Part shown: positions 3,662 through 31,539 of the stretch, in pieces | Numbering within the stretch: the first letter of the stretch is position 1 | Layout: each line of letters opens with the position of its first letter | Origin: a virus | DNA length: 64,000 bases | Virus record (IMG/VR): IMGVR_UViG_3300007734_000755 | Coordinates: 50,838-114,837 of that record | Reading direction: 5' to 3' (one strand) | Program-made: the position numbers and the translations under genes | The notes under the pieces: model-generated | Seen by the model: only the letters and a program-made list of their open reading frames with translations | What the model was told of the DNA's origin: nothing | Database searches by the model: none

Positions 3662-6600
3662 CTATCCGACCATCTTCCAATTCTTAGAAATGCCCATACA
3701 AGAATAGCTCTTATAGTTCTCATCATAATCTAGTTTGGCAACATATGGTCTGTTTAAATAGATTAAATCCTTTTCAAGATCTACTCCCCAGCACTTTATT
3801 TCAAACGTCTTTGAGGAATCATCCGCTACCTGCACTGCATAATAGTTCTTGCTATTTTTTGACTTCTTTACCTCAAAGGACATTGGGATAAACCAACAAA
3901 CTCCAAGTTCTGCATCAAACTTGGAGATCGGATAAATCATCTTATCGTCCAATCTCTTATAAAGTTTAGGATCCATAACCAACTCTATGGGGAAGAATCC
4001 CAACAACTCCTTACAATTCTGTATTACCTCGGCCTTTGAGAAGTCTCCCTCTGACTTATAGAGCTCAATATATTCATCAAACTTCTTCTTTGTCTTTGGT
4101 CTTTCTGCGCTAAACGACATCCAAAAATGCTTTGTTCCTGTAAATCGATTGTCTATCAAACAATCCAGCGCTCCGCATCTGGCAAGAGCATCAAACCCTC
4201 TCTTGTTGAGCTTGGAATAAACAATGTCCTCGTTGAAAAGCATTTCATCAATCGTCTTGAATGGCCGATTATTTAGGACTTGTTCGACAGCCTTATCTCC
4301 CAATCCCTTGATTGAGTTTAAAGGTTGATAATAAGTCTTACCATCGGTTGAAACACGCCATTTATCTCCAGAATTATTGATATTTGGGGACTCAATTTTA
4401 TAACCCAGAGACTTAATAGTAGAAATGGCCTTAGCCTTTCCATCATCATCCTTGGTTTCTTCATCTAGGTACGACGCAATCCATTCAGATGGATGATAAG
4501 TAAGAAGGTATGCACACTGATAGGAAAGGATGCTATAACAAACGGCATGAGATTTATTAAAGCCGTAACCAGAGAAGAACTCAAAGGTTTGCCATAGCCT
4601 CTCCGCATCATCAACTTGAATATTCTTTTCAGCACATCCTTCCATAAACTTAACATAAATCCCGTCCTTTACTTCATGACCCTTTCCGGTGCCCTTCTTG
4701 GTAAGTAGTTTTCTAAGTAGATTGCCCTCGTCAAGAGACAAGTCCTTTCCTAGCTTGTGGGCAATCAACGCAATCTGTTCCTGAAAGATGAGAAATCCAA
4801 AGGTCTCCCTTGTTATTTCTTCTACAATTGGATGCAGGTATGAAATACTTTCCGGAGATTCCTTGGCCTTAACATAGTTCTCGTCAACCTTAGCCGATAA
4901 CGGGCCTGGTCTAAAGATCGAGGTTACTGCCGATAGGTCAATGATACTCGTTGGCTTTGCCTTCTTACAAAACTCCTGCGCGCCTCTTTCTGCAAATTGA
5001 AAGACTCCAACCCAGCTTCCGTCATGAAATACGTTTTTATAAACTTTTTGGTCATCAAAGTTTATGACTGACGGGTGTAGTTTTTTATCATAGAAATCTC
5101 TTATCTCCTTAAATGTTGGAGATGGATTTCCGTTCTTGACGAGGATCCTAGAAATAGTATTTTCTATTAGTCGAAGGGTTGTTAATCCAAGAATGTCGAA
5201 CTTGATAAACCCTAGAGGCTCCAAGTGTCTTACATTCTGGCCCTCACTCCATGGGGTTTGTGTAACACCGCCAGAATTTATCAGCGGCATATATCTTGAG
5301 ATATTTTCAGATACAATTACGCCACCAGCGTGCCTACTCGCACTTCTCACTTGTCCCTGTAAGACACCAATGCTCGTCTTTATATCTGGATATTTCGTAA
5401 GAAAGCCTTGCAGGCTTTCTGAATATTCCATCAACTCCTCAAAGGTTGGCACGTACTTACCAGCAGTTAGCCCGTGTTTTTCCTTTGCGGCAACCATCGC
5501 TTCCTTTTCCATCACTGATGTTACATCATTTACTTCCTGATATGGAACGCTATAAAGTTTTGAGAGATCCTTGATAAGAGAACGAAGTTGTAGAGTGTTC
5601 CAGTTTGAAATTGGAACAACGCTGTCATTTCCCCATTCATCAATAAGCATCTGTTTCAATGCCATTGGATCAGAGGTATCAAAGTCGATATCTGGATAAT
5701 CCTTTGCGTTTTTTTGTAGGAACCGGCTAAACAACAGACCGTATTTAATTGGATCTAGTTGAGTGATATTCAGCAAATATGATACCAAGGAACCTGCTGC
5801 CGATCCTCTACCTGCTCCGACTAGCTGATTCTCCACTGCCTTATCGGCAATAGCCTTCATTGTCAGAAAGTACTTAGAGAATCCGCGATCCTTAATAATC
5901 GATAATTCTTCTCTTATTCTTTCAATATATTGCTTATTGGTTCCAAAGCCAAATTTCTTCATTGATTCAGAACACATTTCAACAAGGGCCTGAAAGTCAG
6001 TCTTGCCCTCTGGCACAACAAAGCTTGGAAGTCTCACCGATGAGTCTGGCAGAAAGGATTCAATATGAGCGTGAGCAATTTCATAGGAGTTTTCGATTGA
6101 TTCAAGTACTACTTGATCGTCATAATCACAACCTACCTGTTCCGAATACTTCTTGTATGCATCCCACATTTGTTGCCCGTTCTTGGGGTACAGCTCACAC
6201 TTAAGATCTTCACGGCTCTTGGGAAGAGTTTCTAGAGAGAGATTCTTTGATCCAAGCCAACCAAGCATCTTATAAATTTCTCTTTCCTTCCACAACTCTG
6301 GTCTTGGATAATGGCTATCGCAGGTTGATACGAGCTTAACCCCGTTCTCTTTTGCAACGGAGATGATAAGGTTGTTGATGCTGTGTTGTTCTGAGTAGGC
6401 ATTCCATTGTAATTCGCAATAGAATCTGTCTGAAAAGATTTCCTTAAAACTCTTAACAGTTTTATTCATCTCCTCGAATACTTTTTCTTCTCCCTGCTCC
6501 TTGTAGGCCCAAAACGATTTGGATAAAATCCCACCCATGCAGGCAGAAAGAACTATTACCCCCTCGTTATGTTCCTTCAACATTTCGTAGTCGATTCTTG

Positions 6601-7075
6601 GAAATCTGTAAAAATTTCCTGGTCTGTAAGATTTTGATACTAGTTGATAGATATTAGACAGACCTACTGGGTTTTGTGCCAGCAGTACAAGATGCGCTCT
6701 GAAATTTAGAGAATTCTTTTCCAGTTGCTTGGATTCCTCTTCGTCTTCTACTACTACACCGCTCTCCTCATTGTCATCCTTCTTTGTCTTCTTATCTGCC
6801 TTGCTTTTATCATAGGCGACTTTCCAATCTGATATAGATGGGACAAAATAAGCCTCAACTCCGAAGATTGGCTTGAAGGTCTTTCCCTCGGCCGCTAATT
6901 TCTTTGAGTGCAAAACTTGATATGACAGGCCGTTCATGTTACCGTGATCTGTTAGTGCTAGGGCATCTGCTCCATTCTCCATGGCATAATCAATATGCTG
7001 GGAGGGGTAGCCTAGGCCATCAAAAACACTGAAGGTTGAGTGTCCGTGCAGGTTGGTGAATTTAATATTTGGCAT
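3662..7075 (-). CDS. dnaE: DNA polymerase III alpha subunit (DnaE-type, family C)
   Basis: A complete family C replicative polymerase of 1137 residues, about the size of bacterial DnaE. The N-terminal PHP domain is visible from HGHST (10-14) and LTDHGN (41-46). The palm follows, with GAGRGSAAGS, then PDIDFD near residue 460 and KFDILGL near 625, which supply the three catalytic aspartates. The thumb/fingers region has the DnaE-like SHAVCYSILSYQCAYLLTYHP. T4-like phages normally use a family B polymerase (gp43), so this is an unusual replacement. A family A polymerase fragment is also present at 26.3 kb. It is last in a chain of overlapping genes from 10.5 kb. Confidence 0.95.
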   Translation of the reverse strand: MPNIKFTNLHGHSTFSVFDGLGYPSQHIDYAMENGADALALTDHGNMNGLSYQVLHSKKLAAEGKTFKPIFGVEAYFVPSISDWKVAYDKSKADKKTKKDDNEESGVVVEDEEESKQLEKNSLNFRAHLVLLAQNPVGLSNIYQLVSKSYRPGNFYRFPRIDYEMLKEHNEGVIVLSACMGGILSKSFWAYKEQGEEKVFEEMNKTVKSFKEIFSDRFYCELQWNAYSEQHSINNLIISVAKENGVKLVSTCDSHYPRPELWKEREIYKMLGWLGSKNLSLETLPKSREDLKCELYPKNGQQMWDAYKKYSEQVGCDYDDQVVLESIENSYEIAHAHIESFLPDSSVRLPSFVVPEGKTDFQALVEMCSESMKKFGFGTNKQYIERIREELSIIKDRGFSKYFLTMKAIADKAVENQLVGAGRGSAAGSLVSYLLNITQLDPIKYGLLFSRFLQKNAKDYPDIDFDTSDPMALKQMLIDEWGNDSVVPISNWNTLQLRSLIKDLSKLYSVPYQEVNDVTSVMEKEAMVAAKEKHGLTAGKYVPTFEELMEYSESLQGFLTKYPDIKTSIGVLQGQVRSASRHAGGVIVSENISRYMPLINSGGVTQTPWSEGQNVRHLEPLGFIKFDILGLTTLRLIENTISRILVKNGNPSPTFKEIRDFYDKKLHPSVINFDDQKVYKNVFHDGSWVGVFQFAERGAQEFCKKAKPTSIIDLSAVTSIFRPGPLSAKVDENYVKAKESPESISYLHPIVEEITRETFGFLIFQEQIALIAHKLGKDLSLDEGNLLRKLLTKKGTGKGHEVKDGIYVKFMEGCAEKNIQVDDAERLWQTFEFFSGYGFNKSHAVCYSILSYQCAYLLTYHPSEWIASYLDEETKDDDGKAKAISTIKSLGYKIESPNINNSGDKWRVSTDGKTYYQPLNSIKGLGDKAVEQVLNNRPFKTIDEMLFNEDIVYSKLNKRGFDALARCGALDCLIDNRFTGTKHFWMSFSAERPKTKKKFDEYIELYKSEGDFSKAEVIQNCKELLGFFPIELVMDPKLYKRLDDKMIYPISKFDAELGVCWFIPMSFEVKKSKNSKNYYAVQVADDSSKTFEIKCWGVDLEKDLIYLNRPYVAKLDYDENYKSYSCMGISKNWKMVG

Positions 7076-11730: not shown

Positions 11731-12384
11731 CTAGGACAGTTGAAATATTTTTGATAAAGCCTCAGCGATAGCGTTCGCAACTTCTCTGTGTTCCTTCTGT
11801 GTTGCCACATCCTGCCGAACTTCAAGATAGTGGATCCACGATCTAATTGATCCCTTCATATACATTCTAGTCTTGGTTAAGCCCTCTGGGAGAACCTTAC
11901 GAGCAACTTCCTTTGCAATCCCCTTATCTATGGCCCACTCATAGGCTTCCTTGGATGACTTCAACACGCTCTCTTGATAGATCTTCCATTGAAGTTTTAG
12001 AGAATCATCCTCAATTTCTATTGAATTTTGACGATTTTTATCGTCTTGCAGTCTCGCATCTGAAAGCTCAAAAGTATCATCGAGATCTCTAATGTCTGAA
12101 TATCGTTGCGAAAATTCTTGGAACGAAAAGCTCCGGTGTCGTAGGATTTGTCTCGCTATATCTCTCGTTGTTTCTATTTCGAATGTTGCATCAACCATTT
12201 CTAGTGGTGACCAGTGGTGATTCTTTATAAGATATTTGATAAGGCGATCTGACGTTTGTGTGTTCATCTGGTTAGATGGATTTGATACTCTTGCGCAATA
12301 GGAAACGAGATCCTTGATATCTTCTATATCTGTTTCCTCTAACTTTCCCGCTGGCTTTGTATGTGATATTAAGCTAACCTTCAT
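11731..12384 (-). CDS. thyX: flavin-dependent thymidylate synthase
   Basis: A ThyX of 217 residues, which makes dTMP from dUMP using methylene-tetrahydrofolate and FAD/NADPH. The signature RHRxxSxxxxSxRY is present as RHRSFSFQEFSQRY at 82-95. The C-terminal part keeps the expected RSWIHYLEVR-type segment. With dUTPase and RNR it supplies thymidine nucleotides for phage DNA. A candidate sigma70-like promoter lies just upstream, and the paralogue array follows in the same operon. Confidence 0.95.
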   Translation of the reverse strand: MKVSLISHTKPAGKLEETDIEDIKDLVSYCARVSNPSNQMNTQTSDRLIKYLIKNHHWSPLEMVDATFEIETTRDIARQILRHRSFSFQEFSQRYSDIRDLDDTFELSDARLQDDKNRQNSIEIEDDSLKLQWKIYQESVLKSSKEAYEWAIDKGIAKEVARKVLPEGLTKTRMYMKGSIRSWIHYLEVRQDVATQKEHREVANAIAEALSKIFQLS

Positions 12385-13484: not shown

Positions 13485-14543
13485 TTATATAGTAATCTTG
13501 CCGATTCTATCGTCAACATTTATCTTAGTTACTCTATCAAACCCCTCTTCTTCGGTTGGCCTTTCATATCTATTCAACATTGATAAAATTACATCTCTTG
13601 AGATTTTCTTTGATTTTCCTTGAGTTCTCAACTGTTCGTCTCTATCCTGGTTTATTTTGATTAATTTTTCCATATTCGACTTATCAATCATGAAGTCAAC
13701 GGCCACTCTTGTAAATCTGTTTCTGTTAAATTTATTCAACCATTGTTTTCTTGTTTTGACATTCATGTTCGTCATATCAATAATGATATCCTTCTCGCTC
13801 TTAGCAGCCTCCTCGATATTTCGCTGAAGCATATTGCTAATACGTTTGTTTAGTTCTTCAATTTTTGGGTCATTTTTCCACATATCATTATATGTAAGTC
13901 CGTTTTCTTCCGCAACTCTATCAACAATGGCATCTCGAGATATAACAGTTGAACTGTTAAATTGCACATTATTTTTTATCCAAGTTGATTTTCCCACCCC
14001 AGGAGGGCCTATTAGGACAAAAAGCTTCTTCTTTTGTATGTCCTCTTGCCCCTCTATCATTGTATATGCCTCCGGAACATGAATAATTTTACATCCAAGG
14101 TTGTTATCGTTACAAAATTCCTTAAAAATAGGGAAATGTTCTTCGCGGTCATCATAAAACGTTATGTAATCAATATATGGGTTGTTAGACAGCAGACTTT
14201 TTACGTGTGCTAGCTTAGATTCGGCTGCTCCACCATCATCGGCAAGCCCAATATATGGAAAACCTAGTTCTTTCTGGGATAATAATTCCTTAACTCTATT
14301 GGAAAACAACTCTTTTCTACCAGTAAGCATAATAACGTAGCATTCTTTGTCCGAGAGATGTTCAAAAGCCCTTTCGCATATTTCATTATTCCACCATGAA
14401 CCATCGGGAACCGGAGGAACCAGTGGCTCCATAAGGGAGGCAGTGTTTCCCCACCATTTTCCTCTCCATTTGTTTGGTCTTCTGGGGCTTTTAAATAGGG
14501 TCCCATCAAAATCAAATATGACGAGGTGTTTTATAACGTTCAT
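13485..14543 (-). CDS. polynucleotide kinase-phosphatase-like protein (HAD phosphatase then P-loop kinase)
   Basis: A 352-residue two-domain protein. The N-terminal HAD phosphatase has DFDGTLF at 11-17, with the nucleophile and acid Asp11 and Asp13, and MLTGRKE later. The C-terminal kinase has GPPGVGKST near 180-188 and IIIDMTNMN. T4 Pnkp has the opposite order (kinase first), so this arrangement resembles eukaryotic PNKP or other end-healing enzymes. It likely repairs RNA or DNA ends. The ATG at 14543 has GGAGGT just upstream and overlaps the stop of the GC-rich gene as ATGA. An open frame continues upstream through the GC-rich insert but is an artefact of GC-rich sequence. Confidence 0.85.
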   Translation of the reverse strand: MNVIKHLVIFDFDGTLFKSPRRPNKWRGKWWGNTASLMEPLVPPVPDGSWWNNEICERAFEHLSDKECYVIMLTGRKELFSNRVKELLSQKELGFPYIGLADDGGAAESKLAHVKSLLSNNPYIDYITFYDDREEHFPIFKEFCNDNNLGCKIIHVPEAYTMIEGQEDIQKKKLFVLIGPPGVGKSTWIKNNVQFNSSTVISRDAIVDRVAEENGLTYNDMWKNDPKIEELNKRISNMLQRNIEEAAKSEKDIIIDMTNMNVKTRKQWLNKFNRNRFTRVAVDFMIDKSNMEKLIKINQDRDEQLRTQGKSKKISRDVILSMLNRYERPTEEEGFDRVTKINVDDRIGKITI

Positions 14544-14862: not shown

Positions 14863-15933
14863 TTAAAAAAATCTATCAATCATTTTGTAGCCTGATTTAT
14901 CATCAAAATCAGACAGTGCCTTAACTGTTTCCTGGAATTCATCGCAAACATATGGGTTATCCGAAAAGTAAGTTACAGCTCCTATTTTAGAGGCTGCTTT
15001 GCTTATCCATCTCTGGAAATCTTCTCTATTCGAGAAGTTCAATAAATCTTTTTCATTATAAATTTTCCAGGTTCCAAGTTCCTCGAGGACATCAATCTTA
15101 TTTACTATTAATTTATTTACTCCGTTCATCTTAATGGCTTGAGCTACCAGATTCCAATTCATCCAATTACACTGTCTCTTCCTTCCAGTTGTTGCTCCGA
15201 ACTCTTTTCCTAGTTCTTGAACTTTTGAGAAGATCGGATCACTTGGTTGAAAGTCCTTTGCTCCAACATAAGTGTCGTATGCCTTTATAACTCCATAAAC
15301 ATCTCTCATGTGTTTATGGTTAAAACCATTTAGCATAAGAGAGCCAATTCCACAATGGCTAGAGGTAACATATGGGTAATCTCCCCAATCTATATCAAGC
15401 CCAAAGGCTTGAGCCCCCTCTGCCAAAACAGAGAATACGTCATTTCTGGTATAAAATTCACTATACATATCGATAAGATATTTTTGTAACAATGGCTCAG
15501 ATTCTGCTCTCCGACCAGTTCTAGCATATTTGTTACTATATGCTGGACCATTCCCGGTCTTAGTCGTACCAATCCTGGAGTCTTTTGAATCGCTTAGAAT
15601 GTCTTCTGGTGTAACGATATGTGCGTTCTTGGCTACAAAGACAAGTCCTTCGGTTTTTATTCCGTTATCATTTAAATATTTTATTTCTTCCAAAAATTTA
15701 TCCACATTAAGAACACAGCCGGGGCCTACTATTGATTTAATACCGTGAAATATCCCAACAGGGATAAGATGAGTTACAAACTTCTTATTGTTGTGATAAA
15801 TGGTATGTCCAGCATTTCCGCCGCCAGAAAACCTAATACAATGTGTATATGACTTCTTTCTTGCCCAATCGTAACAAATTTTTCCCTTGCCCTCATCTCC
15901 ATATTGCAACCCCAAAACTACATCAACCTTCAT
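14863..15933 (-). CDS. adenylosuccinate synthetase-like enzyme (PurA/PurZ family)
   Basis: A 356-residue member of the PurA family, which joins aspartate to a purine nucleotide. GDEGKGK at 12-18 keeps the catalytic Asp13, and NAGHT (40-44) supplies the catalytic His. Other signatures are TTKTGNGPAYSNKYAR, YPYVTSSH and EFGATTGRKRQCNW. The short length and GGGNAGHT resemble archaeal PurA and phage PurZ rather than 430-residue bacterial PurA. In PurZ, which makes 2-aminoadenine precursors from dGMP, the Asp is reported as Ser, so AMP synthesis from IMP is favoured. The ATG at 15933 has AGAGGT upstream; an upstream Met at 15987 has no ribosome site. Confidence 0.9.
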   Translation of the reverse strand: MKVDVVLGLQYGDEGKGKICYDWARKKSYTHCIRFSGGGNAGHTIYHNNKKFVTHLIPVGIFHGIKSIVGPGCVLNVDKFLEEIKYLNDNGIKTEGLVFVAKNAHIVTPEDILSDSKDSRIGTTKTGNGPAYSNKYARTGRRAESEPLLQKYLIDMYSEFYTRNDVFSVLAEGAQAFGLDIDWGDYPYVTSSHCGIGSLMLNGFNHKHMRDVYGVIKAYDTYVGAKDFQPSDPIFSKVQELGKEFGATTGRKRQCNWMNWNLVAQAIKMNGVNKLIVNKIDVLEELGTWKIYNEKDLLNFSNREDFQRWISKAASKIGAVTYFSDNPYVCDEFQETVKALSDFDDKSGYKMIDRFF

Positions 15934-18051: not shown

Positions 18052-18603
18052 CTAACTGCCTTTCCCAACAACTCTGAAAATTGTATTATTGTTGTCTTGT
18101 GGCTCCCATATAGTCCATATAAAATCCATCGTCGGAGAGGATTTAGAATGTTTTTCTCCGCCAAACTGCGGTCTCCAGTTTAGCGCCAAGATCTTTGCGG
18201 GCGGATATTTTTCAAATATCTTAGTTCTTGATTTGGCGTGCCAAAAAGTAGACTTTGTTAACATTGCGACATAAGAACAATTATCAAGAGACTTTATAAT
18301 AAAGGCCTCGGCTAAGCTAAATGGAGGATTTGTTATAATCCCGTCGCACTTAAATTTTCTCGATGATAAATCAACTGTTAAGAAGTCATCCCCAGTTTCA
18401 ATGTCAGAACTCTTTACCTCATCAAAGTACGACGTAAGAACCTTCGCCATTGCGCCATCACCGCAGGCAGGCTCTAAAATAATAACAGATTTAGGCCAAT
18501 CAATATTGTCCAATAGAACTTTCGTTACTTCTGCTGGAGTCGGATAGAAGTCCCTTTCGTTCCTCGTTCCGTTTCCGCCTATAATGTTTGAAGAGTCTAT
18601 CAC
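18052..18603 (-). CDS. class I SAM-dependent DNA methyltransferase-like protein
   Basis: A 183-residue Rossmann methyltransferase. FYPTPAEVTKVLLDNI and LEPACGDGAMAKVL form the SAM-binding motif I region, and NPPF near residue 92 is the catalytic motif of N6-adenine/amino methyltransferases. No target-recognition domain is obvious. It may protect phage DNA from restriction. Its start overlaps the end of the ribonucleotide reductase gene as ATGA. Confidence 0.85.
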   Translation of the reverse strand: MIDSSNIIGGNGTRNERDFYPTPAEVTKVLLDNIDWPKSVIILEPACGDGAMAKVLTSYFDEVKSSDIETGDDFLTVDLSSRKFKCDGIITNPPFSLAEAFIIKSLDNCSYVAMLTKSTFWHAKSRTKIFEKYPPAKILALNWRPQFGGEKHSKSSPTMDFIWTIWEPQDNNNTIFRVVGKGS

Positions 18604-20456
18604 TTTAATTCACAAGCTCCACCGCTACAGGCTATCTCTCCCTGTAGGTTTGTTTCATCATCTGTCTCAAAGACCATTGAGAGATCAACATTCTTTAATG
18701 TTTCCATTAGGGATTCAAATTCCTCCTTAGAACAATCAGTAAACGGCATTTGCCTATAATTTCCGCCATCGTGTGGAATGACACTAAGACCTGAATAATA
18801 ATTTTTATTATTCCACATCCATTCTCCAACTTCGTCCCATCCGCTATCCTTGATAGCTATTGTTGCAGAGACGTTATGCGTGTTTTGTCCCTTTAGATGT
18901 CCTGGCTTTATCCAACTATTGTGAATTTTCTTAATTCTTTCTAGAAGATCTACCTCACTCTCTGTTCTAAGGATAGCGCCTTCTGGAGCTTTTTGCGGAA
19001 CAGAAATAACAGCAGAATCGTGTGGTCTAAAATATTCATCCTCAACTAGTTCTGGGTGGTTGTCGGACAGGTATCTATAAATGGCCTCGCCCTTACCAAC
19101 ACGAAGTCTGCGAATATAAAAATCGTTGTGCCAGGCATGAACACCGCTGGAGGTTCCCAGGATTAGGCTTGTAGTTCCAGACGGCTTAACAGTAGTTACT
19201 CTTGCTGCCTGATTAATTCCTATCAGAGCAGCAACTCTCTTGTTCTCTTCTATAGCTATCAGGGCTGCCTGCCCCATGTCCAACTCTGTTACCTTGTTAG
19301 ACGCTATTCCGGTCATCCCAATGCCCAACAGAGCCTCTTTCTCGGTTGTACGACGCCACACATCTCTTAGATAGTGAAAGTCGGTATATGAGGCTTGTAG
19401 TGTGCCTATGAACGATGCAGCTTTTACTCTAGCATTGAAGTCCTCTTGAGATTCAAGATCACTAACGTTTGTCTCGACAAGATTACAGAATTGGTTACTT
19501 CTTAGTGCAATTTCGGCACACGGGTTTGTTCCCCATTCCTTATCGTTTGTAAAGAAGATTCCTGGCTCGCCAGCTCCGGAGGCTCTTATTCTATCCCAAA
19601 TTCCAAGAAAATAATCCTTGGTGATACGGTGTCTAAGAATCACTGCCGAATTGTTTGCTCTTCCTCGGTGAGGGTGGGTTTCCGACCAGTTCCCAGACTT
19701 GGCAGCGATCATTTCATCATCATCTGCGCTAAACAAACAGATAAGAGCAGAGCGCCTAATTCCGCCTGCAAGTACGGCATCCGCAATGTAGCAAATAATA
19801 TCATGTACCTCAATTGGTTGAAGTTTGTCTCCCTCTTCCTTTCCATTTAAAACTCCCTCTATTTTTAATAGACATTCCTTTAGTGGTTGTGGGCCGGGAG
19901 CCTTACCTCCGGCGGTTATAAGTCTCGAACCCTTTGCTCTAATATCTCTGAAGTCAAACGTAAGACTTGATCCGCCCTCAAAGTACGATTTCATTAACGA
20001 TTTGACCGCATCGGCCCATCCCTCAATGCTATCTCCAACAAGATATCTTCTCTTCCTCTTACCGTTTGGTTTCTTTATTTCTGGAAGTTTCTCAACGTGA
20101 TGTTTTTGGACCGAATATCCTACGCCTGTTCCGCCCAATAGGAGGAACATGATTTCGTTGAATGCCCGATAATCATCCACCGCCGTGAATGCACAATTAA
20201 AGATTCTTGATGGACATACGTCGATCGCCTTCCCGGCAAACTGCATTGATCTCATAGATGGCAAGACCTTTCTTTGAAGGACAAACTGATACGCCTCTTT
20301 GATTTGTTCTGAAAGTTCTGGAAACTTGCGTATATGCATTTGCATATTTCTATCTACTGTTTCCTCGTATGTCTCTCTTCTAAGCTCTTCTCTAAGATAG
20401 CGAGCATACTTCATATGATGCGTAATGTCGCTCAAAATTTTCTGTGAAATATCCAT
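18600..20456 (-). CDS. adenosylcobalamin-dependent (class II) ribonucleotide reductase
   Basis: A 618-residue RNR. Visible are GGTGVGYSV, the active-site region NPCAEIALRSNQFCNLVE, VKPSGTTSLILGTSSGVH and the C-terminal redox pair CSGGAC. The compact single-subunit plan and the absence of a radical-carrying beta-subunit gene nearby fit the B12-dependent monomeric type (as in Lactobacillus RTPR and several phages), which reduces ribonucleoside triphosphates using host cobalamin. A near-consensus promoter (20485-20514) precedes it. The reductant may be the phage thioredoxin at 1.7-2.0 kb. Confidence 0.9.
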   Translation of the reverse strand: MDISQKILSDITHHMKYARYLREELRRETYEETVDRNMQMHIRKFPELSEQIKEAYQFVLQRKVLPSMRSMQFAGKAIDVCPSRIFNCAFTAVDDYRAFNEIMFLLLGGTGVGYSVQKHHVEKLPEIKKPNGKRKRRYLVGDSIEGWADAVKSLMKSYFEGGSSLTFDFRDIRAKGSRLITAGGKAPGPQPLKECLLKIEGVLNGKEEGDKLQPIEVHDIICYIADAVLAGGIRRSALICLFSADDDEMIAAKSGNWSETHPHRGRANNSAVILRHRITKDYFLGIWDRIRASGAGEPGIFFTNDKEWGTNPCAEIALRSNQFCNLVETNVSDLESQEDFNARVKAASFIGTLQASYTDFHYLRDVWRRTTEKEALLGIGMTGIASNKVTELDMGQAALIAIEENKRVAALIGINQAARVTTVKPSGTTSLILGTSSGVHAWHNDFYIRRLRVGKGEAIYRYLSDNHPELVEDEYFRPHDSAVISVPQKAPEGAILRTESEVDLLERIKKIHNSWIKPGHLKGQNTHNVSATIAIKDSGWDEVGEWMWNNKNYYSGLSVIPHDGGNYRQMPFTDCSKEEFESLMETLKNVDLSMVFETDDETNLQGEIACSGGACELK

Positions 20457-21132: not shown

Positions 21133-22494
21133 TTATTTTGCAGTCCGATATTTATCAAAGATTTCCTGTTTCTTGTTTTTTGTTTTCTTAAATTTCATGG
21201 GTTCTTGTTCTGGTTCATTTGGTTCGTCTAGCACCTCAATCTTAACCACGGAAGTATCCATAAAAATTGGCATAACAATACCATCTGGGCCATTTCGATT
21301 CTTAGCAATAAAGAATCTGCCAGAATTGGTCTTTTTATCATCCATAGTTCTTGATAATGAGAAGATAAAGTCAGCCACGAAGCATTTGTTAAATGCCTCA
21401 GAAATAGATTCCATTGTAACGATCTCTGCGTTTAATCCCGATCTGTTTGTTTGAGAGGCTGTTATAATTGGACAAGTAAACTCCTGAGCCATTGCTCTCA
21501 ATTCTTCATAGATTGATTCCAACTCAGTTCTCTTCTCCTTATACACAACTGTCGGCTTTAACAGATCTCCATAATCCACAATAATTAAATCTACCTTCTG
21601 TCCCATCGACATAACCCTCTTAGCATGATTCTTAATTGTTGTCGTTGAGGCTGATTTTGTTGGATATTCCTTAATAATAAGCTTACCCTTAAGATCTTTA
21701 ATGCCCTCCAGAACAGCATCCTTCTCATTCATTAATTCAGACAGCGGAACTCCGGTTAAACAGGCATCGTATCTTCCGGCTATGATCGTATCGGACAATT
21801 CAAGAGTATAATGAAGTACGTGTAGGCCCGCCTTTAGTGCCTGAGCTCCTAGATGTACTAGGAGATGAGTCTTTCCAGCCCCAGTTGGAGCTACTGCCAC
21901 CGTTAATTCCCCTCTTCCAAAGCCGCCCTTTGTAATAGCGTCAATTTGCGGCCATCCGGTAGAGACTGGATTTCTGTCCTTAGCTAGGAACCTTTTTTCG
22001 AAATCTAGTTTGTAATCATAACCAAAGTTGTTGTCTGTCCCTAACTTAAGGGCGTTTGTTACGATAACACCAATCTCATCTAGAGAGGTAGACTTCCCCA
22101 TAAGAGCGGCACTCTTAACAAGAGCTTCCTTGATTTTCTGACGGCGACAAAAATCTAGAGAAGTATCCTTAATATACTCCTCGTCCTCTATTTCTGGTGA
22201 TGCCGTTATCCTGGCGAAGTAATCCCTTATTTGTTTATTAAGGGCATCATTGTCATCTTCTAGTTCTGTACGAAGGATTGTCGTCATTGTTGAATTCGAT
22301 GGGTACATATCATACTTGTCTCTGTACTCAAACAACTTCTTACAAAAGAACTGAAGGTATTTCAACTCAAAGAAATTAAGATCTAAAACTTCTCTTAGTT
22401 GGTCTGCAAACTGCCTATCCTGAAATATTAACTGCGTTAATCGTTCCTGGAACGATTTCCCAAATTTAGAAAAATCTATTTGGTTATTACTCAT
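21133..22494 (-). CDS. replicative DNA helicase (DnaB/gp41-like)
   Basis: A 453-residue RecA-fold helicase. The N-terminal 160 residues form a helical domain. Walker A is APTGAGKT near 204, and Walker B is LIIVDYGDLL near 307, followed by ITASQTNRSG. It should unwind DNA 5'-3' at the fork and cooperate with the phage polymerase. A primase is not visible in the window. It lies directly after the exonuclease gene. Confidence 0.9.
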   Translation of the reverse strand: MSNNQIDFSKFGKSFQERLTQLIFQDRQFADQLREVLDLNFFELKYLQFFCKKLFEYRDKYDMYPSNSTMTTILRTELEDDNDALNKQIRDYFARITASPEIEDEEYIKDTSLDFCRRQKIKEALVKSAALMGKSTSLDEIGVIVTNALKLGTDNNFGYDYKLDFEKRFLAKDRNPVSTGWPQIDAITKGGFGRGELTVAVAPTGAGKTHLLVHLGAQALKAGLHVLHYTLELSDTIIAGRYDACLTGVPLSELMNEKDAVLEGIKDLKGKLIIKEYPTKSASTTTIKNHAKRVMSMGQKVDLIIVDYGDLLKPTVVYKEKRTELESIYEELRAMAQEFTCPIITASQTNRSGLNAEIVTMESISEAFNKCFVADFIFSLSRTMDDKKTNSGRFFIAKNRNGPDGIVMPIFMDTSVVKIEVLDEPNEPEQEPMKFKKTKNKKQEIFDKYRTAK

Positions 22495-22502
22495 TTGTTT
22501 CC

Positions 22503-23468
22503 TTATTTATTGTGTAGTGAGACCTTATTAAGTCTGGCGAATAATTCAACCCAAGAATAATTACCTGTTCCATCTTCCATCATAAACTTGCGAATATTTG
22601 TCTTGTTGAACGACGATGGATAGTTGTCGATTATATCTCTTGTCTTTATTGTTGTATCAATAGATACAGATGGAGAATACAGTTGCATCATTTCATAGTT
22701 TTCTCTGATAAGAGATTCTGATTTTAAAATTGAGCTATGCAGTTGCAGAGGCTTGGCCACATTCTTGCACGCATCGAAGATTTCGGTCAACATCACAGAT
22801 TTTTCTTCTCGAAGGCTCGGGAATCTCTTTGCCATAGTCTTGATTCCGACCCCCTCTGCTCCTGGCAAATTATCGGAAGCATCACCAACAAACGCCCTTG
22901 CAAGAGCAAAGTTGTTGGGGTGGATATCAAACTCTCCCACAACCTTATCAACGTCATAGATCTCTTCCTTGCAGGGCCTATATAAAAACGTTGTCGAATT
23001 TAGAAGTTGTAGGAAGTCCTTGTCGTTAGATACGATGACCTTATTATCACTTGGAAGCTCTCTACAGAGAATAGAAATAATATCGTCTGCCTCAACAAAA
23101 TCTAGATAAATTTGTGCTATTGGCATTTCATTTAAATATTCCATCACTCTAGAGTTCTGCCAATACTTGTTTTTTCTTTCGTCATCTTCACTTAATTCCC
23201 CAAAGGTTCGATTCAGCCGAACAGGCTTTCTACCCTCCTTATAATTACTGTTTATGGCTCTTCTTCGTATAGAAGATTTATGTCCATCCCAACAAAAGAA
23301 AATCTTATCGGGTTCTATTTCTCGAACCATTTTTTGTAGAATCTTAAACGTTCCCTTTATTCCTCCAACAGGATCTCCATTGGGGCCAAGAGATGGATCC
23401 ATAAGATATGCTCTAAAGAATAGATTAAGCCCATCAATTATTAAAATTTTATCGGGTGTTTTACTCAT
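22503..23468 (-). CDS. 5'-3' exonuclease / RNase H (FEN family)
   Basis: A 321-residue nuclease with the FEN/PIN-like pattern. LIIDGLNLFFRA at the N-terminus carries the first Asp, FFCWDGHKSSIRR the next, then VEADDIIS with the acidic pair, and VSNDKDFLQLL and FVGDASDNLPGAEGVG with later Asp residues and the helix-hairpin. It resembles T4 RNase H (rnh) and the 5' nuclease domain of Pol I. It would remove RNA primers, completing the exonuclease-less family A polymerase. It overlaps uvsX by eight bases. Confidence 0.9.
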   Translation of the reverse strand: MSKTPDKILIIDGLNLFFRAYLMDPSLGPNGDPVGGIKGTFKILQKMVREIEPDKIFFCWDGHKSSIRRRAINSNYKEGRKPVRLNRTFGELSEDDERKNKYWQNSRVMEYLNEMPIAQIYLDFVEADDIISILCRELPSDNKVIVSNDKDFLQLLNSTTFLYRPCKEEIYDVDKVVGEFDIHPNNFALARAFVGDASDNLPGAEGVGIKTMAKRFPSLREEKSVMLTEIFDACKNVAKPLQLHSSILKSESLIRENYEMMQLYSPSVSIDTTIKTRDIIDNYPSSFNKTNIRKFMMEDGTGNYSWVELFARLNKVSLHNK

Positions 23469-24600
23469 CTATATCACAATCCTCTTCTGAATCATCAATG
23501 TCGTAAAAACTCTTAGCACTTCCTTCCTTAGAATCAAACTTGTGGATCACTTCCTTATCCATAACTCTGAGGACCTGAGATCTAAAATCATCATCCTTTA
23601 GCTTCTCGATCCAATCCTTAAATTGAAATTTGACTTCCTTTCCATCATCAAATATCAGAGTATACCAGGCCCCACCCTGCTTCAACTTGTCAGAGTTCTT
23701 TATAGCCTCAAACCAACTTTCCTCATCCTGAATAGCAATATCCTCTCCACCCCACAAAATCTTAAAGGTACACTCTCTTCCCTGAGTGCCAAATCTAGAT
23801 TTTTCGATCTTCGCCTTAAGCTCATTACCAACTCTAAACCCAGCATCGTTTAATATAAAACTAGCCTTACCCTTTCTGGCCGTAAGCCAGATTCGCAATG
23901 AGTACGCATAAGCCAGTGCTTTCCCACCAGGAGTAAAGTATGGCGTCATCATAGCTTCCTGCGGAGTTCTTGCAATATTGGTCTTCAATTGATTTAGGCA
24001 GAGCAGAGTGCTCCCGGAGTTTGCAAGGGGCTGTATGAGCTTGGAGAAGGCCTTAGAAAGGATTCTGGGCTTCACTGCCATAGATGACTGCGGATTGAAG
24101 TCTCCCTCAACGTCCGTTTCTGTTGGAGTAAACGCAATAGAATCCCATACAAACAACAGCTTATTTTGGTTTGCCGCCAATAGGGTCTCAATTGTTTCTA
24201 AGACAAATTCTACCGACCGTGCCTGTACATACAACAGATTAGAAATGTCTACTCCGGCACTTGTCATGAAGTCTGACGAGATGGCGGATTCAGAATCGAA
24301 ATAGATAACATCTATTCCCATCTTCTGCGCGTTGGCCGCAACCTGTGCTGCCATATAGGACTTACCGGCAGATTCCAATCCTGCTAACTCCACAATCTTA
24401 CCAGTTGGTATTCCGGCGACCATTCCCTTGCATATGATGGAATCTAGCCATCTTGAGCCGGTTGGAATCCAATCATGGACATCTGTGGGATTGAGTTCAC
24501 CCAAATCAAATGCAACAATTGATCCATCTTTCTTGTTAATCATGTCCCTCATTTGAGACATGGGGATTCTTCCCTTAACTTCCTCTTTCTTCTTCTTCAT
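23461..24600 (-). CDS. uvsX: UvsX-like RecA recombinase
   Basis: A 379-residue strand-exchange protein. Walker A is GLESAGKSY near 68-76, then DSESAISSDF and LFVWDSIAFTPT as the Walker B region, and LLCLNQLKTNIA as a DNA-binding loop-like segment. The C-terminus is acidic (DDSEEDCDIDE), as in T4 UvsX and RecA. It drives recombination-dependent replication with the gp32-like SSB upstream and the gp46-like nuclease at 62.5 kb. AGGAG is seven bases before the ATG. A hairpin lies upstream. Confidence 0.92.
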   Translation of the reverse strand: MKKKKEEVKGRIPMSQMRDMINKKDGSIVAFDLGELNPTDVHDWIPTGSRWLDSIICKGMVAGIPTGKIVELAGLESAGKSYMAAQVAANAQKMGIDVIYFDSESAISSDFMTSAGVDISNLLYVQARSVEFVLETIETLLAANQNKLLFVWDSIAFTPTETDVEGDFNPQSSMAVKPRILSKAFSKLIQPLANSGSTLLCLNQLKTNIARTPQEAMMTPYFTPGGKALAYAYSLRIWLTARKGKASFILNDAGFRVGNELKAKIEKSRFGTQGRECTFKILWGGEDIAIQDEESWFEAIKNSDKLKQGGAWYTLIFDDGKEVKFQFKDWIEKLKDDDFRSQVLRVMDKEVIHKFDSKEGSAKSFYDIDDSEEDCDIDE

Positions 24601-24753: not shown

Positions 24754-25506
24754 TTAGACTCCAAGAGACTTGAGAGCAGAATCAAGTTCTTCTGCTTCAC
24801 CGGGGACAGCCGTAGAAACATCACCCCCTTCTTCACTGCCGCCGTTTAAGAATTTATCCAAGGCTTCGGCAACCTGCCCAGTTGTTTTACGCTCGAAGAT
24901 CGCATTGAAATCTAGACCGTGGCTGAGGAAATCTTCGATTTCCTTCTTGGTTTGCGCCAACGGTGTTGACTTGCGCTTTGGCGTCATAACCGCCTCTGCG
25001 AACTTCTTTCCACCCTTCTTTGTGGATTGGACGGTTAGATCCAGTCCCTCGGTAACATCAGTGATATCGCCGTAATCGGGATTAAGCATTAGCTTAAGTA
25101 ACTCTTCGTAGATTGTCTTAGAGAACCCCCAAACCATAACGCCCTTGTCCTCTTCTCCTCTAGCGATGACCGGAGCAAAGAACCGTTGTTTCGATCCAAT
25201 CTCCTTGGCCATTGTGCGACTTTCCTCATCGCCCTCTTTATAGAGCTTAGAGACTAGATCACAGATCGGGCAGGATTCACTTAGGTTTCTCTTGAGACAG
25301 AAGATACTCGTAACCTTCTTTGAGTCCTCGCGTAGGTAATGGAAGAAGAATTCCTTGAGTGGATCTCCATCCTCGGTGGGCACAATACGAATTGTGGTGT
25401 CCACGTTTTCTAGAGGCTTCCAATAGGTTACGGTCTTACCCTTTCCGCCGGTTCTATCATTCAGCTTAGCCAATTTTTCTTTAATTTTTTTAATATCGAA
25501 CGCCAT
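24754..25506 (-). CDS. 32: single-stranded DNA-binding protein (gp32-like)
   Basis: A 250-residue SSB. The zinc-binding pattern is visible as IFCLKRNLSESCPICDL, the OB-fold part as RFFAPVIARGE and VMVWGFSKTIYEEL, and the C-terminal tail is acidic and Gly/Ser-rich, as in gp32. It coats single-stranded DNA and recruits helicase and recombinase. It is preceded by AGGAG and followed by a 150-base gap containing the GC-rich patch and hairpin. Confidence 0.88.
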   Translation of the reverse strand: MAFDIKKIKEKLAKLNDRTGGKGKTVTYWKPLENVDTTIRIVPTEDGDPLKEFFFHYLREDSKKVTSIFCLKRNLSESCPICDLVSKLYKEGDEESRTMAKEIGSKQRFFAPVIARGEEDKGVMVWGFSKTIYEELLKLMLNPDYGDITDVTEGLDLTVQSTKKGGKKFAEAVMTPKRKSTPLAQTKKEIEDFLSHGLDFNAIFERKTTGQVAEALDKFLNGGSEEGGDVSTAVPGEAEELDSALKSLGV

Positions 25507-25522
25507 TTTTATTCACTCCTGT

Positions 25523-26347
25523 TTATTGTTGTATTATGTTGGTATTAGCAACGAGGTAGACAAAATTTGTATCATAGTTTGTAGTTGTTATCTTGTAAGA
25601 GATATCAATTTCCGTACCGGAATAGGCCTCTTTCGTCTGCTGTTGGATCAGTTTAGTCAAGTTTTTGTTCTGTGTCAAGTCCTCTTTTCCGATGGCATAA
25701 AGAAAAACTTTCTGCATTGGTTGAGACAACTTGTATAAATAAGCCTCTTGTCCATCCTCGATATTATATATCCCAACAGTAGAGATTCTGTCTATCTCTC
25801 TTGTTGAAGACATCTTACCAAAGACTTCCTTTCCTGTCAATAAGTAGTTTATCATATGAAAAGTGGTTACAATTGTCTGGTTTATGCTCTCATAATACTC
25901 TGTAATCGATAAACCACCAAGAAGATTTTCTACTTGTGAGTTAGAAATTATCACAATTCTGTTTATGAGAGAGCTTCTAGCATACTCCTGAAGAATGCCA
26001 AATACTACCTTATCCCTGATTTTCTTCTCGTTGGAAATAAGGGCCGAATCTGGTCTTATATAAAGAAGGTCTACCTTTAGATGTTTAATCTTCTCTAAGA
26101 TTCTCAATGTTATACCCGATATCTCTCCACCACCCGCTAAAATTACGGTGGCGTCTCCCTTCAATTTCCCCAGTAGCTTTATTTCCGGAATGTTATCTTC
26201 GTATTCTTCTATAGAGTTCTTTTTGGGGATAGAAAAGCAATTTTTGCCCTTTATTCCGACATCTATTTTGTATATTTTATATTCTGGATATTGTGAGAAT
26301 AAGTCAGCAATACAACATCCACCATTTCCAATCCCAATTATGTTCAT
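25523..26347 (-). CDS. FtsZ/tubulin-superfamily-like protein (divergent)
   Basis: A 274-residue protein. It starts MNIIGIGNGGCCIADLF (glycine loop at 5-10, like the FtsZ GxGGxG start) and has AGGGEISGIT at 71-80, in the place of the tubulin signature GGGTGSG. It continues ILEKIKHLKVDLLYIRPDSA, as in FtsZ before its next strand, and SQVENLLGGLSITEYYESIN like the FtsZ region after it. The signature deviates (Glu-Ile-Ser for Thr-Gly-Ser), so GTP hydrolysis is uncertain. I recall similar proteins in T4-like marine phages. It overlaps the polymerase gene as ATGA and precedes ssb. Confidence 0.65.
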   Translation of the reverse strand: MNIIGIGNGGCCIADLFSQYPEYKIYKIDVGIKGKNCFSIPKKNSIEEYEDNIPEIKLLGKLKGDATVILAGGGEISGITLRILEKIKHLKVDLLYIRPDSALISNEKKIRDKVVFGILQEYARSSLINRIVIISNSQVENLLGGLSITEYYESINQTIVTTFHMINYLLTGKEVFGKMSSTREIDRISTVGIYNIEDGQEAYLYKLSQPMQKVFLYAIGKEDLTQNKNLTKLIQQQTKEAYSGTEIDISYKITTTNYDTNFVYLVANTNIIQQ

Positions 26348-27567: not shown

Positions 27568-28812
27568 CTATTTGCTGTCAAACTCGATTGTTGCTTGGTT
27601 TCGATATGTAACAGTTCCAACATTATCTGTAAAATATTTTATAGCGGCGATAGCAGCCTTTGCTGGATTGGTGTCCTGATTAGATCTAAAAATTTCTATT
27701 GACGTCTCTCTAGCTCTATCTAATGTTTCTTCTTCGACAGTACCAGTCAACTCTGCACTTCTAAACAAGAGATAGAGTCTTATGTAATCCTCTATCCCAG
27801 TAGGAGTCATAGTTTCTCTGGGAGTATCCTGTACGTTTGCTGTACCACACGGATTTATCAAATAACTCTTATACGAGGAGGTAGAGGCGATAAACGCAGA
27901 ATAAAATGATTTAATTGTCGTTATAAATTCATTAAGATAACTGTAAGAATCCATGTCGTATGGTATCACTCGATCGTAATATGTGTCAAAGAATAGTTGT
28001 AGCTTTTCCTCTGGATTCTCCTTGGTGAGTATCCCTGGTATAAAGTTTGCCGCAACTGTTTCGAAGTCTAATTGATTCTCTCCGGAATCCGCCGGTTTAG
28101 TCCTTATATCAACGTAAACTCTCCACGGAATTTCTCTATCAATTTTTAAATTATTTCTAATACACAGCTCTAGAAACGGTTCGTGATTTGGGTCCTCAAA
28201 AAACCCGGCTCTTTCATCTTCGTTTATGGTTTTCTCGTTATAAATCTCTATGCCTAATCCGGTATGTAATAAAGAAAAATCCACCGACTCGACGTACCCT
28301 GCTCTTGTGAAGTATTCTCTGTTGTTTTTCACAAAAGAAACAAGTTCATCGGCAAAATCATTAAACGACTTGATAGAATTTGTTTTATTTGATGATTTCA
28401 AATATTGAAAAAACCTTTGATATAGATTTTTTAGAAGCTCAACAAATTCGAGACTCCCGTTTATGTATCCTTTTAATGGCGGAATATCCTTTGCAAAATA
28501 CTTGCTATTTCTGCTCATTGAACCTAGAGCATAATATTCTTTATATTGTTGTCTTAGAGGAAATACAAAGTCTAAAACTGGCTGAATAGCCCTAACCTGA
28601 ATTTTATCCTTGCTGTAGGTACAGTGTCTTAGCAACCCTGGCTTTGGTATAATCGGGATACCTAGAGTGTCAACCTTCCCATAGAATGGCGATGTATACC
28701 AAGAGTCTAGGTAATATTTAGTATAAACAAGACCGGGTTTGGGAGAAACAAACAAATCATTTTTATCGTCGAACTCCTTCCTTCTTAAGAAAGTTTCTTT
28801 TATATTTCCCAT
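27568..28812 (-). CDS. hypothetical virion/baseplate-associated protein, 414 aa
   Basis: A Tyr/Phe-rich protein I cannot name (KPGLVYTKYYLDSWYTSPFYG at the N-terminus). It stands at the end of the baseplate gene run and before the polymerase gene, with AAGGAAC just upstream. Size, composition and place suggest a baseplate or tail component. No enzymatic motif is seen. Confidence 0.65.
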   Translation of the reverse strand: MGNIKETFLRRKEFDDKNDLFVSPKPGLVYTKYYLDSWYTSPFYGKVDTLGIPIIPKPGLLRHCTYSKDKIQVRAIQPVLDFVFPLRQQYKEYYALGSMSRNSKYFAKDIPPLKGYINGSLEFVELLKNLYQRFFQYLKSSNKTNSIKSFNDFADELVSFVKNNREYFTRAGYVESVDFSLLHTGLGIEIYNEKTINEDERAGFFEDPNHEPFLELCIRNNLKIDREIPWRVYVDIRTKPADSGENQLDFETVAANFIPGILTKENPEEKLQLFFDTYYDRVIPYDMDSYSYLNEFITTIKSFYSAFIASTSSYKSYLINPCGTANVQDTPRETMTPTGIEDYIRLYLLFRSAELTGTVEEETLDRARETSIEIFRSNQDTNPAKAAIAAIKYFTDNVGTVTYRNQATIEFDSK

Positions 28813-28821
28813 TTTGTTCCT

Positions 28822-31539
28822 TTATGGCAGCTTCGCGTCTTTACCAAAATGTTCAGCTCTGTCAAGCGATGTCACCTTTATCTTTTTAACGTTTTTGTTC
28901 TTCTTTGCTTCTTCCTTGCTCTTTGTTTCTGGAGGGATTACATTTTGAGCCTCTATTTTTATAATAGATTCAACGTCATTCTCTAGAAGCTGAATAACAT
29001 GATCAACTGGATTTGTCATCAAGATTGATACGCTATCAGTTATTTTTCCGCTAGCAACCGGAATAGAGGCGGTCTTCGTTTTTTCCCTATTGTTATTTCT
29101 TGGATTATAAAACCAGTCTGCCTTGGCCACTGTGGTATATTCGTTTGTTGAACTAAAAGTATCGGTCGTTTCCTTCACTTTATAATATCCGGCTATACCG
29201 GGATCGTTTTCTTCAGAATCTATTCCTAACGGATTAGAAGGAATACAAATCACTGAGTCGTAATCAAACATATTATTACCCAGCATTGTTGCACTAGTTT
29301 GATAATAAAAGAAAAATGTTCTCGATTCCTTATTGGAAAGAGCTTCTAACGCAAGAGCCGACCTAATCTTTGTAAAATCTTGCGCCATAAAGTTCATCGC
29401 TGTAACAGCACCACCATCTGCTCCAATCTTTATATGAATTATTCCTCTCTTAGAATCTTCAATCTCATCAAACTTGAACTCTGAATTCCCTAGGTTAGTA
29501 AACATCGGAGATGATATCTGCGAAGTCTTATTATTGATTTGCCCGTGATAAATTAACGGAAGAGCTTTATCGGTTGGATTTTTGCTAATCAACTCAGACA
29601 ACTTCCTCAAGTTAGTTTCGTCACTAGAAAAATATACTTGTTCCACCAAATCTTTTGGTGGAGGACTCTTTAAATAAAATTGAGTTTGTTTTATTGCAGT
29701 GGTTGGCGATTTGTCATCAAACCCAACTCTGTTGCGATATAATATTTCCGGAACCAAATCAGTTAGAATATCGGTTATAAATGCCCCAAACGAATATTCT
29801 AGAAGATCCTTCTTGAAAAATTTATTGTAGTACCACTGCTGGAAAACTCCGGTTTCTACCAGAAGGTCCCCAATGTTGACAGAGCAGGTTTCTTCCCCAA
29901 CCTTCATCAACACGCTTCCAAACATCATATGTGGTAGTGACACTTTTTCTTCTTTTTCTAAGAACATATATCCTGCCGACAGCAGTGCCTTTAATGGAAA
30001 AAACATTATATTCCCGTAGTGAGAAGTTTTTACTTTTTCATCGTATGGAGCGTTGAATATTCTTGCAAATATTCTGGTTAACAACTCTTCTGTTCCGGCC
30101 TTGTTTGTCTTGATAAATTCCTTTATGGTCGCATTTTCTTTAAATTTTGATGAGTTATACGTGCTTGTATTTTGAACAAGATCAACAAAATCTCCATTAT
30201 CGGGGTGTACTATCGAAAAGATTGTTTTAATTATAAATTCATCCGATGGGGTCTTTATCGTATTAAACCTCACCGAAAACAACTGACCCTGGCTCTTAAT
30301 TTGATCAAGAAACACCGTCGTCAACTCATTTTTTAATCCGCTCATAAGGAGGGCTATTGTCTTGTTTGTTCTTGAAAGATCTTTCGTTATATCTTTTATT
30401 TTGAACTCTTTTCTTTTCTGCTCAATTTTGCTTATTTCCCCAACTTCGTGTTCTGTTTTTGAATTTCTTAGTTGTTCATCTAATAATTTTGATTGATTCT
30501 TCAGATCTCCAAGTCTTTTTAGTTTATCAAGAGATTCTTTCTTTATCTTTAAATTTTCAATATTTTTTGAAGTTGGTGCAGGCTTAGATATGTCGTTCAC
30601 GGCGCGTAAAGATGTATCATGAAAGTTATAGAAGGACACTCCAAGAGAAATTACCCCTTTTTCATCAAATCCAAAGTCATGCTTAAATTTGTTTAAGAGA
30701 TAAACCTTTTTTTCCTTGGCCTCTATTACACTTATCAAGTGGTCGCTTACTCCAGTTATTCCATTGGCAACCTTACGCCCGTATTCAAGCCTTATTATCT
30801 CTTTTTTTGTATCGAGATTAGTAACTAACTTCATAAAACTTAGGCCATATGGAAGCTTTGTTTCGCCCTTTCTACACGGAGTTCCCTGTTCATTAATTTC
30901 TTGCGTAAGAACATTCATATTCCCAAACACAAACTTAATGTCTATCATAGAATTTATGTGAGTAGACAAATTGAACTTGTTCTCAACAGAAATATCTAAG
31001 ATTCCACATCCTTCCGACCTTGCATTTTTGTTGTTTAAGATAAAGTCCAAATCGTATTTTTGTTTGAACGGAAAGTCTATAAATTGAAACTTATCTCTGG
31101 GCGTTTTTTTGTATCCATATTGAAGTTTCACATATGGCTGAAGAAAGGCCGCCTGATACGGTTTCATTGATGACATAAACAACAGGTAGTCTTGAAGATC
31201 CTTAGAAGAGACTGATTGGCCTTTTAGAGTTTCATCTATTTCAAATATGTCTAGGAATCTTCCGTTTAGGAAAATAAACTTATCCTCCTTCTCACCTGCT
31301 CTTTCCACAATAAATTTATTAAAAGAAGCGTCAGTTCCCAACCCCTTACGCAACGCATTATACAGAGCCAGTTGAGTTGGTGTTCCAGGAAAAGTCTTAT
31401 CATAAAATAAACGCGCCAGGACGCTTTTTTTTCTTTCTCCTCGAGAAAGAATAGGGGTGATAAATTCAGATATCCATCCCTGTGGGTTCAGATGATTAAG
31501 AGGGAAATAAACATTTAATTCGTTAGATAATTCTATCAT
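28822..31539 (-). CDS. large baseplate-associated structural protein, 905 aa
   Basis: A long protein with mixed domains. It has a beta-rich N-terminal half, a central coiled-coil-like stretch (around LKIKKESLDKLKRLGDLKNQ), a second beta-rich part and a Lys-rich C-terminus (EEAKKNKNVKKIKV). It lies directly after the gp53-like gene, where T4-like phages keep large baseplate wedge or hub proteins. I cannot match it to a specific T4 gene. Confidence 0.65.
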   Translation of the reverse strand: MIELSNELNVYFPLNHLNPQGWISEFITPILSRGERKKSVLARLFYDKTFPGTPTQLALYNALRKGLGTDASFNKFIVERAGEKEDKFIFLNGRFLDIFEIDETLKGQSVSSKDLQDYLLFMSSMKPYQAAFLQPYVKLQYGYKKTPRDKFQFIDFPFKQKYDLDFILNNKNARSEGCGILDISVENKFNLSTHINSMIDIKFVFGNMNVLTQEINEQGTPCRKGETKLPYGLSFMKLVTNLDTKKEIIRLEYGRKVANGITGVSDHLISVIEAKEKKVYLLNKFKHDFGFDEKGVISLGVSFYNFHDTSLRAVNDISKPAPTSKNIENLKIKKESLDKLKRLGDLKNQSKLLDEQLRNSKTEHEVGEISKIEQKRKEFKIKDITKDLSRTNKTIALLMSGLKNELTTVFLDQIKSQGQLFSVRFNTIKTPSDEFIIKTIFSIVHPDNGDFVDLVQNTSTYNSSKFKENATIKEFIKTNKAGTEELLTRIFARIFNAPYDEKVKTSHYGNIMFFPLKALLSAGYMFLEKEEKVSLPHMMFGSVLMKVGEETCSVNIGDLLVETGVFQQWYYNKFFKKDLLEYSFGAFITDILTDLVPEILYRNRVGFDDKSPTTAIKQTQFYLKSPPPKDLVEQVYFSSDETNLRKLSELISKNPTDKALPLIYHGQINNKTSQISSPMFTNLGNSEFKFDEIEDSKRGIIHIKIGADGGAVTAMNFMAQDFTKIRSALALEALSNKESRTFFFYYQTSATMLGNNMFDYDSVICIPSNPLGIDSEENDPGIAGYYKVKETTDTFSSTNEYTTVAKADWFYNPRNNNREKTKTASIPVASGKITDSVSILMTNPVDHVIQLLENDVESIIKIEAQNVIPPETKSKEEAKKNKNVKKIKVTSLDRAEHFGKDAKLP

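Follow-up and report, generated by a model that had tools for sequence, protein, structure and literature searches.

A predicted FtsZ/tubulin-fold protein encoded between polymerase and SSB genes in a clade of uncultured phages

The replication operon and its genomic setting

The window, i.e. the whole stretch of 64,000 nucleotides analysed here, is part of a virus record of 114,837 bases. It contains an intact ORF with an ATG start codon, just 5' of which lies a GAGGA sequence. As originally predicted, this ORF, whose product is named TUB here, lies between the genes of a family A DNA polymerase (PF00476) and of a gp32-type single-strand DNA-binding protein (SSB; PF08804) (Table 1). The polymerase is small: motifs A, B, and C are present, and the exonuclease domain is absent (alignment A5). 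No relative of this polymerase was found by tblastn in annotated phages.

Table 1 Features located in the window, with their coordinates and the basis of each assignment
Feature	Position	Strand	Basis
DnaE-type polymerase III alpha, complete	3662-7075	-	
DnaB-type replicative helicase	21133..22494	-	PF03796 E 1e-24
5'-3' exonuclease / flap endonuclease	22503..23468	-	PF02739 E 2e-27
RecA/UvsX-type recombinase	23461..24600	-	PF00154 E 2e-34
gp32-type SSB	24754..25506	-	PF08804 E 6e-17; phrog_1192
TUB, predicted tubulin/FtsZ-fold protein, 274 aa	25523..26347	-	ORF; AlphaFold2 pLDDT 92.3; Foldseek top 50 all FtsZ/TubZ
Core helix H7 of TUB, residues 148-171, including Asn156 and near-invariant H164, M165, N167	25835..25906	-	model secondary structure; conservation
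Asn136 of TUB, aligned with FtsZ Asn165 of T6 (guanine side)	25940..25942	-	hhalign register
T4 position of TUB, residues 70-80 (LAGGGEISGIT)	26108..26140	-	hhalign with FtsZ
T1 loop region of TUB, residues 3-14 (IIGIGNGGCCIA; family IGLGxAGCNIA), PhuZ-like GxxGxN	26306..26341	-	conservation tables; hhalign register to PhuZ
ATGA overlap, polymerase stop/TUB start	26344..26347	-	overlap in 69/118 distinct loci
Minimal family A DNA polymerase, 400 aa	26344..27546	-	PF00476 E 4e-8, 33 bits vs cut-off 34.3

The original prediction of a T4-like phage holds loosely, since the phage is a myovirus with a tail sheath, a T4-type SSB, and UvsX/RecA, but it carries a DnaE-type polymerase as well. This complete polymerase III alpha is separate from the minimal family A polymerase, and DnaE is present in five of the seven clade records tested. 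Upstream of the family A polymerase, two genes (27568-28812 and 28822-31539, minus strand) encode proteins of 414 and 905 aa, in an order that is kept in the clade loci reaching that far; neither protein has a match in PHROGs, and the 414-aa protein has a weak Pfam match to DUF7833. Purine and deoxynucleotide genes at 648-1706, 11731-12384, 14863-15933, and 18600-20456 (minus strand) encode IMPDH/GMP reductase, ThyX, PurA, and a B12-type ribonucleotide reductase. A Z-genome (PurZ), considered because of the adenylosuccinate synthetase, was rejected, as the GDEGKGK motif is that of an ordinary PurA. The gene at 13485-14543 (minus strand) may encode a nucleic-acid end-repair enzyme; in its product, an RNA-repair-type HAD domain (HAD_SAK_1) is fused to an AAA_33 domain of the kinase type. 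Anti-phage defence was also rejected, the lone weak PADLOC match (E 0.006) being taken as chance.

The order polA>TUB>SSB>RecA>exo>DnaB is observed in all loci found with TUB as the query, as far as the contigs reach. To escape the circularity of this search, the polymerase profile was used as an independent query. All polymerase-led loci with enough downstream sequence (79 of 79) carry TUB between the polymerase and the SSB; as these loci were drawn from the best 80 of at least 585 polymerase candidates, the count applies to the closest portion of the polymerase clade. The coupling to polymerase and SSB is thus stronger than first proposed, being obligate in the clade as far as tested. With regard to the junction between the polymerase and TUB genes, 118 distinct loci were compared: 69 exhibit a stop/start overlap, 13 a gap of at most 60 bases, and 36 a longer gap. 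The ATGA overlap suggests translational coupling of the two genes. The longer gap corresponds to a MazG-like gene in the five loci inspected (L003:5679-5990, L002:2639-2950, L064, L076, and L040); this gene is of the nucleotide pyrophosphohydrolase type (YNKLVRDRIPEII) and is present in only part of the clade. Pairwise TUB distances correlate with the corresponding distances of polymerase, SSB, and RecA at r 0.58-0.63, close to the level observed among these neighbours themselves (0.64-0.68), as expected for joint descent.

The Microcystis phage Mel-JY01 exhibits the same SSB, RecA, exonuclease, and helicase module, together with a related polymerase, and no TUB. TUB was undetectable in all 80 loci of the Mel-JY01 clade that were searched, which are the best 80 of 109 relatives. 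As the gene order is the same without TUB, the module functions without it, and the presence of TUB in one clade and its absence in the sister clade point either to a clade-specific gain or to a loss in the sister clade. In the seven loci of the Mel-JY01 clade inspected, the polymerase is followed, at the place expected for TUB, by an unrelated conserved gene encoding a protein of about 135 aa (LKTQLVCTFTRK...KKETNTIYTINALNELI; e.g. L193:6417-6830 and L197:6227-6631).

Predicted fold and family of TUB

A tubulin-like protein was originally proposed on the basis of GIGNGG at the N-terminus and AGGGEISG at the position of the tubulin signature, the latter lacking the usual Thr-Gly-Ser. Both stretches are present, at residues 5-10 and 71-78, respectively, and Thr-Gly-Ser is indeed missing. 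Structure prediction and comparison with FtsZ and PhuZ, suggested at the time as a check, support the proposed fold. The AlphaFold2 model of TUB, computed from an alignment of 57 members (A2), has a mean pLDDT of 92.3 and a pTM of 0.90, and its first 50 Foldseek rows against the PDB are all FtsZ or TubZ, with a best E of 1.2e-11 and query-based TM-scores of at most 0.75. A second model, that of a member 36% identical to TUB of the window (L060), has a pLDDT of 93.9 and again matches FtsZ/TubZ alone in the top 50 (best E 1.5e-14). When predicted viral structures are compared, the best matches with a name carry the annotation FtsZ, cell-division protein, or tubulin.

Both models comprise the GTPase domain, the core helix H7, and the C-terminal domain of the two-domain tubulin fold. 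The proposed FtsZ-like order of strands and helices is also found in the model of TUB, except for H8 and H9, which are lost or replaced, and the chain stops soon after the last strand, without a PhuZ-like C-terminal tail. TUB is thus predicted, with high confidence, to adopt the FtsZ/tubulin fold. The GxGxxG at the N-terminus and the weak TrkA_N and Pyr_redox_2 matches of a few members could instead point to a Rossmann-type dehydrogenase, originally named as an outcome that would refute the proposal, but this reading is almost certainly wrong and was ruled out, as the 50 best PDB rows of either model are FtsZ/TubZ without exception and the matches extend over both domains.

At the sequence level, TUB of the window has no match in Pfam or NCBIfam, none below E 0.2 in PHROGs, and none in the PDB. 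Among the 57 members, neither PF00091 (best E 0.019, in seven members) nor TIGR00065 (best 0.05, in six members) was matched above its curated cut-off. When profiles are compared with hhalign, the A2 profile aligns with the PhuZ profile over 153 columns, from T1 to H7, at E 1.8e-4 (probability 48), whereas seven families from the TUB neighbourhood, used as controls, score 0.05-0.6 in the same comparison. Against FtsZ alone, the value obtained (E 0.07) is at the level of noise; the aligned register is nevertheless as expected. The profile comparison with tubulin families thus gave a match above the controls for PhuZ and not for FtsZ alone. TUB does not appear to belong to the sequence family of PhuZ or of TubZ; its nearest sequence match is the PhuZ profile.

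At least 132 distinct homologous proteins were collected from uncultured viral contigs, by contig scans and from the loci found with the polymerase. Two scans of viral contigs were performed, giving 83 loci with TUB relatives that are 32-92% identical; the total confirmed by the second scan was 103. Comparison of TUB with its closest relative gives a dN of 0.037 and a dS of 0.457, and the ratio of 0.08 indicates strong purifying selection. No match to TUB of the window or to one relative was found by tblastn in 50,697 annotated phage records, and the sole match among 84,980 species genomes of bacteria and archaea is a phage fragment in a WOR-3 MAG. This phage-type piece of about 5 kb, with polA, TUB, SSB, and RecA (L094; CP070664.1, deposited as a chromosome), is flanked by runs of N; it was taken as a scaffolding error, and an integrated phage was rejected. 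In the open-access literature, we found no tubulin described for phages of this kind. TUB represents a new, phage-specific family with a predicted FtsZ/tubulin fold, and the phages that carry it form, on our reading, a large group of uncultured tailed phages, mostly marine according to the IMG sample numbers. As the family libraries are blank for TUB of the window, sequence profiles can be said to overlook such proteins, which calls for caution.

Nucleotide site and probable role

The residue equivalences given here are based on the hhalign register and on the secondary structure of the model, rather than on superposed coordinates. The T1 loop is kept as GxGxAGCN, with G7 in 132, G10 in 130, and N12 in 67 of the 133 members. 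Asp29 of strand 2 is found in 118 of 133 members, Asn156, where H7 begins, in 124, and the position of Asn136, which corresponds to FtsZ Asn165, is Asn in 123. We take these T1 residues, Asp29, and both asparagines to be on the nucleotide side, as in tubulin and FtsZ structures, the asparagines presumably being near the guanine.

The motifs associated with the phosphates and with catalysis show a different picture. The PROSITE tubulin signature [SAG]GGTG[SAT]G is found in none of the 132 distinct members (8/8 FtsZ controls), and GGG[ST]G[ST] in no member; T4 of the family, G-S-G-x-I-S-G-A, falls two residues short of the FtsZ loop. The Gly-Ala-Gly of T3 is absent as a family trait, with a conserved E47-x-Y49-E50 in its place. 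With regard to the T7 acids, which in FtsZ/tubulin GTPases complete the active site of the adjoining subunit, no conserved Asp/Glu is observed at residues 168-172, after H7, and the NxDxx[DE] pattern, searched anywhere in the sequence, occurs in just 10 of 132 members. As the T4 signature, the T3 Gly-Ala-Gly, and the T7 acids are missing, nucleotide binding is the most that can be deduced for TUB, and, with phosphate loops so heavily altered, this binding itself could be lost. Of the GTPase-fold protein initially proposed, the fold therefore stands, and the GTPase is not supported. A functional cytomotive GTPase like PhuZ or TubZ, which would polymerise, hydrolyse GTP with non-canonical residues, and position or segregate phage DNA, appears rather unlikely for lack of these same three motifs and of the PhuZ-like tail, even though the T1 GxxGxN and the guanine-side asparagines are retained, PhuZ is the nearest profile, and phage tubulins are known to position DNA (PMC4244570).

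The most conserved residues of TUB are specific to the family: Q120 and R124 are invariant (133/133), and Y23, E47, Y49, E50, S125, H164, M165, N167, and T190 are near-invariant. Since several of them (Y23, E47, Y49, E50, Q120, R124, S125, H164, and N167) replace the phosphate loops, and since a MazG-like gene is often inserted beside TUB, the protein might have been repurposed for another small ligand or for an enzymatic task in nucleotide supply, with no scaffolding. This is quite improbable in our view: the genetic partners of TUB are replication proteins, and we know of no nucleotide-supply enzyme with a tubulin fold. The family-specific conservation also argues against an FtsZ mimic, which would join or cap the FtsZ polymers of the host and halt its division during infection. 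FtsZ is the closest solved structure and a frequent phage target (T7 Gp0.4, lambda Kil, T5.008), but TUB has no FtsZ-like T7 loop or H8 for mating with FtsZ, and its gene overlaps the polymerase gene in a replication operon instead of lying in a host-takeover region; we therefore give this mimicry little credit.

Because of the place of the TUB gene and its coupling to the polymerase, we rate a role in the replication/recombination complex as the most likely. We see about even chances that TUB, as a tubulin-fold protein that binds a nucleotide and hydrolyses it poorly, is an accessory of the module for replication and recombination, which comprises the polymerase, SSB, RecA, exonuclease, and DnaB. 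The module of the sister clade, which works without TUB, counts against this reading. TUB would be made in step with the minimal family A polymerase and would still bind a guanine nucleotide, with hydrolysis probably poor or nil. Such poor hydrolysis leads us to propose a static scaffold or a nucleotide-dependent switch, which may be a monomer or short oligomer or else a stable, non-dynamic filament, and which would hold or place the replication complex rather than act as a PhuZ-like dynamic spindle. In PhuZ, the T7 acids are required for hydrolysis (D190 in 201phi2-1, PMC4244570; D198 in RAY, PMC10299810), and PhuZ without the T7 Asp is still GTP-dependent in its assembly and forms stable filaments (D190A, PMC4244570; D198A, PMC10299810). 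By analogy with these mutants, TUB, with its T7 acids lost in evolution, could serve as a scaffold that the nucleotide stabilises or could form a static filament.

More tentatively, and with the odds against it, TUB may bind the family A polymerase or the SSB, with a guanine nucleotide as a structural cofactor, and would then be the first tubulin-superfamily protein to serve DNA synthesis directly, rather than movement or division. Operon position is by itself insufficient to establish physical contact with the products of the neighbouring genes, and both the choice of binding partner and polymerisation are what we infer for TUB.

Comparison with known tubulins

Known phage tubulins are those of nucleus-forming jumbo phages and of partition systems, and they move or segregate DNA. 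If the proposed role of TUB is true, viral replication can also reuse the tubulin fold as a static component.

PhuZ of the phiKZ-like jumbo phages (201phi2-1 gp59) is the best profile match to TUB, with which it shares a phage-borne tubulin fold and the GxxGxN T1 loop. PhuZ exhibits T7 acids, a glycine-rich T4 of the GGGSG type, GTP hydrolysis, and dynamic filaments, whereas TUB has neither motif. The PhuZ gene is found among unrelated genes in nucleus-forming phages; in contrast, TUB belongs to a fixed replication operon and has a remodelled C-terminal domain. No relative of PhuZ or chimallin was detected in five clade records, the largest of 188 kb, in a search without a positive control. 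The possibility that these phages carry a canonical tubulin in addition to TUB was also considered and rejected, as searches of clade records with PF00091 and the PhuZ profile gave nothing above cut-off.

FtsZ is the closest solved fold, at the TM-score given above, with 10-16% identity to TUB, which lacks the T3 GAG, GGGTGTG, and NxDFAD and in which H8/H9 are missing or replaced. The Foldseek lists also include TubZ (4ei7, 4ei8, and 2xka), a mobile-element tubulin of the same fold from Bacillus plasmids and phages. TubZ is a GTPase encoded in a partition operon with TubR, whereas the operon of TUB shows no apparent partition genes, and the neighbours of TUB are the polymerase and the SSB in all loci. 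A predicted viral tubulin fold is also found in A0A6J5RW92, a protein of 452 aa from an uncultured Caudovirales phage annotated as 'FtsZ Cell division GTPase' (E 2e-10), and in similar BFVD entries.

Diverged FtsZ paralogs, as well as FtsZl1 and FtsZl2, have been described, and some archaeal paralogs are without functional motifs (Makarova and Koonin 2010, PMC2875224). These diverged superfamily members are a precedent for the divergence observed in TUB. Nevertheless, the FtsZl families are cellular, retain the GTP-binding loop, and lie beside membrane-remodelling genes, whereas TUB is encoded by phages.
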